A stretch of DNA of 64,000 nt. Origin: an uncultured Spartobacteria bacterium (lineage in GTDB: Bacteria; Verrucomicrobiota; Verrucomicrobiia; Chthoniobacterales; Chthoniobacteraceae). Position 1 is the first letter of the stretch. Every line of letters starts with the position of its first letter. The translations under genes were made by a program, and so were the position numbers. The notes under the pieces were generated by a model. It saw nothing but the letters and a program-made list of their open reading frames with translations. It was not told the origin of the DNA and did not search any database. The DNA lies in contig CAIXGS010000076.1 of NCBI GenBank assembly GCA_903919125.1, positions 124,001 to 188,000 of the forward strand, written 5' to 3'. This document shows positions 48,393 to 52,615 of the stretch, piece after piece.

Positions 48393-49580
48393 ATGAGCTC
48401 CGCACTATTAGCCAATTTTGAACCCGACGCCACGCCGGACGATCCGCTCAATTTCACCAGCGCCCAAGGAGACGTTTCCGCTCGCGAGGTGGGAGATGTG
48501 GTCGTTTACCAGTTTCGCAACAAGACGTTCCGTCTGGACAAAACCAAGGCGAGGGAACGGTTGGCTGGCAAAAAAGTGATCAACGGGCACCGCTCGGCCG
48601 AGCTCAATGTACTGCCATTGAAGTACCACGAGGCTTATCGCATCTATAAGCAAATGAAAGCCAACCACTGGGAGCCGGATGTCATCGACATGTCGAAGGA
48701 TGCCCACCAATGGAACACCAATGCGCTATCGGCAAAGGAGCGTTGGATCATTGAAATGAGCATTGGCTATTTCTCTGCGGCGGAGGGAATTGTAGGCGAC
48801 TCTGTACTCCACGTCATCGAGGATAATCTCACTGCGGCCGAACTTAAGCATGCGTCGCTACGACACATCGCGGAAGAGTCCATCCACATGGATTCCTTGC
48901 TGCACATCATTGGGAGCCTGAACATCGACTTGGACGAAGTCACCGCAAAGTTCCAAGACATTCCATCGATTTTCAAGAAGAACGCGTTTATCACCAAGCA
49001 CATGCCCGTTCTGAAGATGGGCATCGACCTGACACAGACGGTCAACAAGCAGGCGTTCGCGAAGGCGCTTTTCGCCATCACCCAAGTCATGGAGGGCACC
49101 CAGTTCTACGCCCTTTTCGCAATGGTGCTTTCACTGCACCGCCAAAACAAAATGACGGGCATAGGGCAGATGTTCCAGTACACGCTGCGCGACGAATCCA
49201 ACCACATCGCTTTGGGCCGCTATATTTTAACGGAACTCATCAACGAAAACCCCGACATTTGGACTAACGAATTCCGGCAGGAGCTTTGCGATTTCATGCG
49301 TGAAGGCGTGGAACTGGAAAAGGAGTTCGTGAGTGACTGTTTGCCCGAGGACATCGTGGGAATGCGCCAGCAGGAGTTCCTCGATTTCGTTGAATTCAAC
49401 GCCGATCGCCGTCTTCAAGGGGTGGGATTACCCACACTTTACAAGGTGCGCACCAATCCCTTCCAGTGGCTCGATGAAGTCATTTTCCTCAAAAAGGAAA
49501 AGAACTTCTTTGAAACCCGCGTCACGGAATACCAGACGAGCGGCAGCGTCCAAAACGCTAACGAAGACGACCTGATCTGA
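48393..49580 (+). CDS. nrdB: Ribonucleotide reductase beta subunit, Tyr-less (class Ic-like)
   Basis: A 395-residue radical-generating subunit of class I ribonucleotide reductase. The metal ligands can be aligned to E. coli and Chlamydia R2: Glu131 (SAAEGIVG), Glu162 and His165 (AEESIHMDSLL), Glu234 (VMEGTQFY), Glu268 and His271 (LRDESNHIA). The first ligand is Glu where class Ia has Asp84. The residue at the place of the radical Tyr122 is Leu169 (codon TTG at 48897-48899). Chlamydia trachomatis R2 has Glu89 and Phe127 at these two places and uses a Mn(IV)/Fe(III) cofactor in place of a tyrosyl radical, so the same chemistry is likely here. The C-terminal tyrosine for radical transfer may be Tyr380. 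nrdA follows after 173 bases with two hairpins between. Confidence 0.95.
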   Translation: MSSALLANFEPDATPDDPLNFTSAQGDVSAREVGDVVVYQFRNKTFRLDKTKARERLAGKKVINGHRSAELNVLPLKYHEAYRIYKQMKANHWEPDVIDMSKDAHQWNTNALSAKERWIIEMSIGYFSAAEGIVGDSVLHVIEDNLTAAELKHASLRHIAEESIHMDSLLHIIGSLNIDLDEVTAKFQDIPSIFKKNAFITKHMPVLKMGIDLTQTVNKQAFAKALFAITQVMEGTQFYALFAMVLSLHRQNKMTGIGQMFQYTLRDESNHIALGRYILTELINENPDIWTNEFRQELCDFMREGVELEKEFVSDCLPEDIVGMRQQEFLDFVEFNADRRLQGVGLPTLYKVRTNPFQWLDEVIFLKKEKNFFETRVTEYQTSGSVQNANEDDLI

Positions 49581-49753: not shown

Positions 49754-52615
49754 ATGTCTTCCAGTTTCGTGCTTCAATCAGACCAAATGACCGCCGACAT
49801 ACCGGCTATTCCTACGGAGTCAGCCGATTTCCCTAGGGTGATCCGACGAGATACTCCGCAGTCGCTTCAGCAAAAGCCGCACATTGTCCCCTGGTTGGGA
49901 CACAAGATCGAGCGTGCAGTGGCGGCGGCTTGTGCTTCCGTGCAGGCAGACGAATCCATTGGCCGACAAGTGCGGGCTGAAATTGAATTCAAAGTCCGCA
50001 GGGAAAATCCCTCTTTTGTTCACATCGAACAACTGCAGGATTTGGTGGAAGATACCCTGATGGATCTGGGCCACAACCGCGTGGCCTTGGCGTACGGCAA
50101 ATATCGGGCAAAACGTGCGGCACTCCGTGAACTGGCGCACGAACAGTCTTACGAGGTTGAAACAGGGCAGCTGGAACTCGCTACGCACGAGCAGTTAACC
50201 GATATCCGTGCGCGTGTGTCCTTTGCGCTGATTGGGTTGCAACTGGAACTCTCCGAGAACGAGATCATCACCCGCTTGCTGCGTTCCACCTCGATGTCTC
50301 TTTCCCCTTCTGAACGCAGGGAGACCATCATTCTCAACGCCAAAGGGTTGCTCGAAACAGAGGCCGACTCCCGCTTCCTCGCCGGACGCATTCTTCTCAC
50401 CTACATTTACGAAGAAACCCTCGCATGGCGCATCACTGATGGCCCTCAAGCTCTCAAGGAAGCCCATCGCAGGGCGTTTCTAGCCTACATTCCCCTTGGC
50501 ATTGAACTCGGCCGACTCGACCCTCGCCTTGCCCAATTCGATCTCCGCGCCCTCGCAGATGCCGTGGATCCCTTCGCCGATCTTCAATTCGATTTCCTTG
50601 GAATCCAGACCCTTTACGATCGCTATCTCATCAACCGGCGCGATACCACCACCGGCGAAAAACTGCGCCTCGAAGCGCCCCAGATTTTCTGGATGCGCGT
50701 AGCGATGGGCCTCTCCCTGCTTGAAAAGGAGAAAGAAGCGCGTGCCATCGATTTTTACACCCTCTACAAAACTCGTCGCGCCTGTTCTTCCACGCCGACT
50801 TTGTTCAATTCCGGCACACTAAAAAGCCAGTTATCTAGCTGTTATCTATTGTATTGCGGAGATTCAATCGAGGAAATCACCGAAACATGGAACCGCTTCG
50901 CTCATCTCTCCAAGTGGGCTGGCGGTTTGGGTTGTTCCTGGACGGCCGTGCGCGGCACAGGTGCCCACATTCAAGGTACTAACGGCGAATCTAGTGGGGT
51001 GGTTCCTTTTCTCAAGGTATCCAACGATATTGCCATTGCCGTGAATCAGGGCGGCAAACGCCCCGGTGCACTTTGCAGTTATCTTGAGCTCTGGCACATG
51101 GATATCGAGGACTTCCTCGATCTGCGTAAGGAAACCGGCGATGACCGCCGCCGCACTCACAACATGAACACCGCGCACTGGATTCCAGACCTGTTCATGA
51201 AGCGGCTCAAAGCCATATCTGAAGGCCAGCTTTCCAAAGAAGCGACATGGACGCTGTTCCGTACCAACGAAGTCGCCGACTTGCCCGAGTTGCACGGCAG
51301 CGCCTTTGAGCGCCGCTACCTCGAGTACGAAGCCCTCATGGAGGAAGGGAAAATCTTCGGACGCAAGGTTCGTATCCTCCAGTTGTGGAAGCGCATGATT
51401 GAGATGCTCTTTGAAACGGGACACCCTTGGATAACTTTCAAGGATCCCTGCAATGTGCGCTCTCCCCAAGATCATGTCGGCGTGATCCACAACTCCAATT
51501 TGTGCACGGAAATCACACTCAACACCTCTACGGAAGAAGTAGCCGTATGTAATCTGGCCTCCGTCAACCTGCCGGCCCATCTCACGCCCGAAGGTGCCAT
51601 CGACCATCCCAAATTGAAGGGCACCGTCGAGATGCTCATGCGGATGCTGGACAACGTGATTGACCTCAATTTTTACCCGGTGCCGGCGGCGGAGCGGGCA
51701 AATATGCGGCATCGCCCCGTTGGCCTAGGCGTCATGGGCTTGCAGGACGCGCTTTACATGAAGCGTATTCCGTTCGATTCGCTAGAGTCGGTGGATTTCA
51801 ATGACGAGATTCTGGAGGCTATCGCCTATTACGCCTATACAGCGTCAGCGAAACTGGCGTCAGAACGTGGCGCCTACCAGACTTTCAAGGGCTCCAAGTG
51901 GGACCGCGGGATGCTACCGATGGACACCCTGAATTATCTCGAAAAAGAGCGCGGTGTCGCAATCCTCGTGGACCGCAAGGAGCGCATGCCTTGGAACGAA
52001 TTGCGTGAGCTTATCAAACAGCACGGAATGCGGAATTCCAACTGCATGGCCATAGCGCCGACTGCGACTATTTCGAACATTCTGGGATGCACGCCCTGCG
52101 TAGAGCCGACATACAAACACATCCATACCAAGTCCAACCTCTCGGGCGAGTTTGTGCGCACCAACGATCTTCTCCAACGCGATTTACAGATTTTGGGGCT
52201 CTGGGATCAGGCCATGTTAGACGACCTCAAGTACTTCGACGGTTCGGTACAATACGTTGACCGCGTACCTGATGACATAAAGCGTTTGTACAAGACGTCG
52301 TTTGAAATCGAAAATACGTGGATTTTGCAGTGTGCTGCCGTACGTCAGAAGTGGATTGATCAAGCGCAAAGTACGAATCTCTGGCTTGAAAAGCCCGACG
52401 CACGCGTGGCGAGCTTCATGTACCGCGAAGCTTGGGAACGTGGCCTCAAGACCACCTACTATCTACGCACGCTGAACAAGAGCAACATCGACAACGCCAG
52501 TCGCGATCGTAGACCAGCCGCAGCCGCTGCTCCCATCACTGAACCTGAGATCGCCCCAAGCGCTTGCTCAATTCAGGCTATGATGAACGGAGAAACCTGC
52601 GAGTCCTGCCAATAA
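49754..52615 (+). CDS. nrdA: Ribonucleotide reductase alpha subunit
   Basis: A 953-residue catalytic subunit of class I ribonucleotide reductase, which makes deoxyribonucleotides. An N-terminal domain (about 25-115) resembles a diverged ATP-cone for overall activity control. The ten-stranded barrel carries the active-site set: Cys363 in SQLSSCYLLYCGDS, then NSNLCTEITLN (the Asn-Cys-Glu group) and VAVCNLASVNL. The last residues are CESCQ with Cys949 and Cys952, the swinging thiol pair that is re-reduced by thioredoxin or glutaredoxin. The ATG at 49754 has no Shine-Dalgarno sequence. It pairs with nrdB upstream; the long N-terminal part and the Tyr-less partner together resemble the chlamydial enzyme. 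Confidence 0.96.
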   Translation: MSSSFVLQSDQMTADIPAIPTESADFPRVIRRDTPQSLQQKPHIVPWLGHKIERAVAAACASVQADESIGRQVRAEIEFKVRRENPSFVHIEQLQDLVEDTLMDLGHNRVALAYGKYRAKRAALRELAHEQSYEVETGQLELATHEQLTDIRARVSFALIGLQLELSENEIITRLLRSTSMSLSPSERRETIILNAKGLLETEADSRFLAGRILLTYIYEETLAWRITDGPQALKEAHRRAFLAYIPLGIELGRLDPRLAQFDLRALADAVDPFADLQFDFLGIQTLYDRYLINRRDTTTGEKLRLEAPQIFWMRVAMGLSLLEKEKEARAIDFYTLYKTRRACSSTPTLFNSGTLKSQLSSCYLLYCGDSIEEITETWNRFAHLSKWAGGLGCSWTAVRGTGAHIQGTNGESSGVVPFLKVSNDIAIAVNQGGKRPGALCSYLELWHMDIEDFLDLRKETGDDRRRTHNMNTAHWIPDLFMKRLKAISEGQLSKEATWTLFRTNEVADLPELHGSAFERRYLEYEALMEEGKIFGRKVRILQLWKRMIEMLFETGHPWITFKDPCNVRSPQDHVGVIHNSNLCTEITLNTSTEEVAVCNLASVNLPAHLTPEGAIDHPKLKGTVEMLMRMLDNVIDLNFYPVPAAERANMRHRPVGLGVMGLQDALYMKRIPFDSLESVDFNDEILEAIAYYAYTASAKLASERGAYQTFKGSKWDRGMLPMDTLNYLEKERGVAILVDRKERMPWNELRELIKQHGMRNSNCMAIAPTATISNILGCTPCVEPTYKHIHTKSNLSGEFVRTNDLLQRDLQILGLWDQAMLDDLKYFDGSVQYVDRVPDDIKRLYKTSFEIENTWILQCAAVRQKWIDQAQSTNLWLEKPDARVASFMYREAWERGLKTTYYLRTLNKSNIDNASRDRRPAAAAAPITEPEIAPSACSIQAMMNGETCESCQ

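Follow-up and report, generated by a model that had tools for sequence, protein, structure and literature searches.

A probable class Ic-type ribonucleotide reductase R2 protein with leucine at the radical position, and its relatives in Verrucomicrobiota and Armatimonadota

The nrdBA locus and the metal site of NrdB

The window, a 64,000-nucleotide stretch of DNA from an uncultured Spartobacteria bacterium, carries the two genes of a class I ribonucleotide reductase (RNR), both on the forward strand, as are the nrdB residues whose coordinates are given below. The nrdB gene (48393..49580) encodes the R2 (beta) subunit, a protein of 395 amino acids. It was identified from its open reading frame, from profile matches (Pfam Ribonuc_red_sm, PF00268, E 5.7e-67; a score above the cutoff of NCBIfam NF005550), and from its best PDB match, the class Ic R2 protein of Chlamydia trachomatis. 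The nrdA gene (49754..52615) encodes the partner, a catalytic (alpha) subunit of 953 amino acids in which a profile search recognised one ATP-cone together with the all-alpha and barrel domains. This nrdA provides the single PF02867 match in the 4.34 Mb source assembly, which is 95% complete. Neither a class III RNR nor a match to NrdI (PF07972) was found in this assembly, and the same searches were positive in control genomes. Since the genome has only this one RNR alpha subunit and lacks both class III RNR and NrdI, the R2 protein of the window is presumably in use. A candidate NrdR box, one weak and imperfect palindrome at 49900, lies within nrdA and was rejected as being at chance level. 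A promoter and terminator scan around nrdBA was uninformative.

The nrdB product was aligned to all PDB chains with phmmer. The C. trachomatis R2c protein (1syy/4d8f) was the top match at E 2.7e-75, followed by 6y2n and then by other R2 proteins. The alignment to C. trachomatis is gapless from residue 48 to past residue 171, and thus from Glu131 to Leu169. A one-residue gap follows, after which Glu234, Glu268 and His271 fall on Glu193, Glu227 and His230. All of the C. trachomatis landmarks (E89, E120, H123, F127, E193, Y222, E227, H230, W51 and Y338) have counterparts. The position of E. coli Tyr122, Phe127 in C. trachomatis, is occupied by Leu169 (TTG, 48897..48899). The first metal ligand, Asp84 in E. 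coli and Glu89 in C. trachomatis, is Glu131 (48783..48785). The other ligands are Glu162 and His165 (48876..48887; Glu120 and His123 in C. trachomatis), Glu234 (49092..49094), and Glu268 and His271 (49194..49205). A sequence-only reading of this DNA had placed a leucine at the Tyr122 position, noted the same choice of glutamate as in C. trachomatis, and described the remaining ligands as intact; the alignment bears out all three statements, and the positions named in that reading are correct. The radical-position tyrosine that would speak against that reading was sought in the alignment, and Leu169 stands in its place. A misalignment concealing a tyrosine is excluded by the E-x-x-H-x-x-x-L spacing, which has no gap relative to C. 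trachomatis.

The residues of electron and radical transfer are present as well. Trp93 (48669..48671) corresponds to the electron-transfer tryptophan, Trp48 in E. coli and Trp51 in C. trachomatis, and is invariant among the relatives described below. Tyr263 (49179..49181) aligns with C. trachomatis Tyr222, an electron relay during cofactor activation whose role and conservation have been described (PMC4118035). Tyr380 (49530..49532) aligns with the C-terminal radical-transfer tyrosine, Tyr356 in E. coli and Tyr338 in C. trachomatis. Phe238 and Asp267 match Phe197 and Asp226 of C. trachomatis. Ala130, just before the first ligand, is the same in the two proteins; the R2b proteins that use or select Mn2 have Leu before the first ligand (PMC7239806).

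An AlphaFold2 model of NrdB was built from 27 aligned sequences and has a mean pLDDT of 80. Foldseek placed C. trachomatis NrdB first among PDB entries (E 4.7e-20). With VIA-align the C. trachomatis entries scored Z 40.1 to 39.0, ahead of 6y2n (37.9), Aquifex (35), and E. coli class Ia and class Id (both 32 to 33). The likeness of the predicted fold to the Mn/Fe NrdB of C. trachomatis does not prove a shared function.

A family of leucine-type R2 proteins

Relatives were collected by a protein scan of contigs and by searches of 387 genomes from the phylum of the source organism and 151 from Armatimonadota, the phylum of the relative L011 by its record title. Among 228 distinct R2 proteins, the residues at positions 131 and 169 are Glu/Leu in 130, Glu/Phe in 20 and Asp/Tyr in 78; other pairs are confined to 15 pseudoenzyme paralogues. 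For the association of Glu with a residue other than Tyr, the tree has one or two independent pairs, too few for a tree-corrected p value. The pairing is in line with that known from the literature, which is Tyr with Asp in classes Ia and Ib, Phe with Glu in class Ic, and Tyr with Glu in class Id (PMC8463856). The Leu-type sequences come from Verrucomicrobiota and Armatimonadota, and both Leu169 and Glu131 are invariant in them. All six leucine codons are used at position 169 among the relatives, indicating that Leu169 is kept by selection. A sequencing error or a pseudogene at this codon is excluded by the same pattern of a conserved residue with synonymous codon changes.

Of the 387 Verrucomicrobiota genomes, about 85 encode Leu-type R2 proteins, at 50 to 72% identity to the window protein. 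Closer ones (75 to 89%) are found in metagenome-assembled genomes, most of which bear the label Verrucomicrobia or Akkermansia. Armatimonadota contributed at least 12 full-length Leu-type proteins, and the remaining R2 proteins of both phyla are Glu/Phe or Asp/Tyr. One Leu-type R2, 81% identical to the window protein, is on a contig labelled Chlamydiae (L008); either the bin is misnamed or the gene was transferred. A divergent Glu/Phe protein of 29% identity (L219, G415:C42) has Trp at the Tyr263 position, sits on a very long branch and fits no group well.

This distribution bears on whether the window protein works at all. The source assembly encodes a second, Tyr-type NrdB on contig C82, and its C-terminal stretch, KKEKNFFETRVTEYQT, is identical to that of the window protein, so that it could be imagined as the working beta subunit beside an inactive or degenerate window R2. 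We find this hardly credible. The window nrdB retains all its ligands and adjoins nrdA, and its type recurs across the phylum, whereas C82 has phage-like genes (repressor, integrase and helicase) and no nrdA. The orphan gene itself (L173, 9110-10084 of this 57.9 kb contig of assembly G000) belongs either to a prophage or to a mis-binned contig.

The Leu-type proteins share a signature, EE[SN][IV]H[MAT]DSL plus Tyr126 (48768..48770). Position 126 is Tyr in all 130 of them, in none of the 20 Glu/Phe proteins and in 9% of Asp/Tyr R2s, and Tyr also occupies position 82 in 93% of the Leu types, as against 5% and 1% of the others. Such conservation could mean that a displaced tyrosine, for example Tyr126 or Tyr82, holds the radical, which would make the enzyme a tyrosyl-radical RNR whose site has moved. 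This seems very unlikely, as Glu at the first ligand pairs with tyrosine-free R2s across the whole set. E. coli R2 likewise has a Tyr five residues ahead of its first ligand, for which we know of no radical role.

Descent and tandem paralogues

A careful tree was built with columns 131 and 169 masked. In it the Leu-type proteins form one group (support 100/100) on a long branch of 2.8 changes per column, beside Glu/Phe proteins of candidate phyla (96/91). The Leu and Phe types, C. trachomatis included, are grouped at 95/88; for the group without the divergent L219 the support is only 61/15. In a quick tree that included very distant outgroups, the Leu and Phe types came out apart. The simplest account, though unproven, is that the tyrosine was lost once and that Phe was later replaced by Leu. 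The Glu/Phe protein 6Y2N is placed among the Tyr types, and a single clade uniting it with the remaining Glu/Phe proteins and the Leu types was rejected (p-AU 0.015). Because of this rejection, the Glu/Phe pair probably arose more than once. The class Ic-like character proposed from the sequence finds support in the alignment, the fold comparison and the masked tree.

In 3 of the 387 genomes the Leu-type nrdB has another R2-like gene as its neighbour. Two of these tandem copies (L153 and L154, in G116 and G207) keep the metal ligands and Leu169; they have Asn at the Tyr263 position and miss the KKEKNFFE stretch that precedes the C-terminal Tyr. A different paralogue, here called beta-prime (L220-L234), is found directly upstream of the Leu-type nrdB, for example at G378:C8:97454-98512. 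It occurs in 15 genomes of three genera within one Verrucomicrobiota family (G378, 12 genomes of g206 and two of g205). Four of the six metal ligands are lost in beta-prime (E131 to Q or G, H165 to R or Q, E268 to V, I, T or A, and H271 to R), as is the C-terminal tyrosine. Its best PDB match is C. trachomatis R2. A dN/dS of 0.04 to 0.08 in close pairs nevertheless indicates strong purifying selection on this pseudoenzyme. By analogy with the Rnr2/Rnr4 beta/beta-prime pair of yeast, beta-prime resembles a bacterial counterpart of Rnr4. Our literature search found no report of a beta/beta-prime R2 arrangement in bacteria.

Probable cofactor and comparison with known R2 proteins

We consider it likely that the nrdB product is a class Ic-type RNR beta subunit, with a Mn(IV)/Fe(III) oxidant and with Leu169 as a filler. 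In a protein without the tyrosine, the oxidising equivalent must sit on the metals. The sequence leaves the choice among Mn/Fe, Mn/Mn and Fe/Fe unfixed, and the features checked favour Mn/Fe. Glu131, the counterparts of Tyr222 and Phe197, Ala130, and the absence of the class Id Tyr and Lys together make Mn(IV)/Fe(III) the most likely state, and it is our best inference for the cofactor.

In C. trachomatis the oxidising Mn occupies site 1, adjacent to where the tyrosine has been lost (PMC8463856). In the window protein Mn would likewise be in site 1, next to Leu169, with Fe in site 2. Reaction of the dinuclear site with O2 or H2O2 would give a Mn(IV)/Fe(IV) intermediate, and one-electron reduction through Trp93 and Tyr263 would bring it to the resting Mn(IV)/Fe(III) form. 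This cluster would then oxidise the cysteine of the alpha subunit by way of Tyr380 and two alpha-subunit tyrosines. Leu169 would serve as a non-oxidisable, hydrophobic filler, the same job that Phe127 has in Chlamydia.

Two other outcomes at the metal site have to be weighed. There is a small but appreciable chance that the Leu/Glu proteins are a subclass of their own, unlike C. trachomatis in cofactor or activation, for example through another metal pair or through Tyr126 acting as a redox relay, with a cavity in place of the missing aromatic ring. The protein could also be a tyrosine-free R2 that works with an oxidised Mn2(IV,III) cluster in the manner of class Id, activated by free superoxide. 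Class Id proteins too have Glu at the first ligand and use no tyrosyl radical (PMC6754363, PMC8463856), and the lack of NrdI in the source genome is compatible with this idea. It is nonetheless unlikely, since class Id retains Tyr at the radical position where the window protein has Leu169, and its structures score a Z of about 32 to 33 as against 40 for C. trachomatis. The class Id Lys, which we take to lie four residues after the first ligand (Glu67 and Lys71 in F. johnsoniae), would be expected here at position 135, which is Gly in 130 of 130 Leu-type sequences.

The leucine is not new in itself. The sequence-only reading had called the protein a variant of its type, with Leu in place of Phe; the leucine stands, and R2c proteins in which Leu, Ile or Val replaces this Phe were already documented by Hogbom in 2010, according to PMC3824934. 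What is new is the breadth and the signature of the Leu clade, plus the tandem R2 pseudoenzyme, and not a new type of R2. Our literature search, which had most subscription journals outside its reach, turned up no study of a purified Leu-type R2, and the biochemical work in the R2c papers it did find is centred on C. trachomatis. Class Ic has been called primarily an enzyme of pathogens and extremophiles (PMC4118035). The presence of the Leu clade in phyla not known mainly as pathogens weakens this view. The large clade also offers test enzymes for two questions: can the Mn/Fe cofactor do without an aromatic residue next to site 1, and is it the Glu ligand that determines the choice of metal?

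Among known systems, the C. trachomatis NrdB (1SYY, 4D8F, 4M1I) is the best fold match. The two proteins share Glu as first ligand, the full ligand set, the lack of a radical Tyr, the counterparts of Trp51, Tyr222 and Tyr338, and the KEKNFFETRV tail. They differ in that the window protein has Leu169 where C. trachomatis has Phe127, Asp167 where it has His, and Tyr126 where it has Phe; identity is about 37%, and the window protein has an N-terminal extension of about 45 residues. The Glu/Phe proteins of candidate phyla (L012-L015 and L078), which branch closest to the Leu clade on the masked tree, share the Glu ligand and Asp167, but have Phe at the radical site and are about 40% identical.

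Other classes are further removed. The class Id R2 proteins of F. johnsoniae and L. blandensis resemble the window protein in their Glu first ligand and probably in a metal-based oxidant; they differ in keeping the Tyr, in a Lys near the metals, in the use of Mn2 and in a lower fold score. Class Ia and Ib proteins (E. coli NrdB, and NrdF) have the same ferritin-like fold, ligand layout and radical-transfer residues, but combine an Asp first ligand with a radical Tyr, neither of which is found here. Class Ib RNR also has the activase NrdI, to which the source genome has no PF07972 match. Class Ie proteins have lost the metal-binding carboxylates and form DOPA from the radical Tyr, whereas the window protein has six ligands and no such Tyr. 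Finally, R2lox proteins have Ala at the position of R2c Phe197 and no C-terminal Tyr (PMC4118035, PMC3824934), while the window protein has Phe238 and Tyr380.
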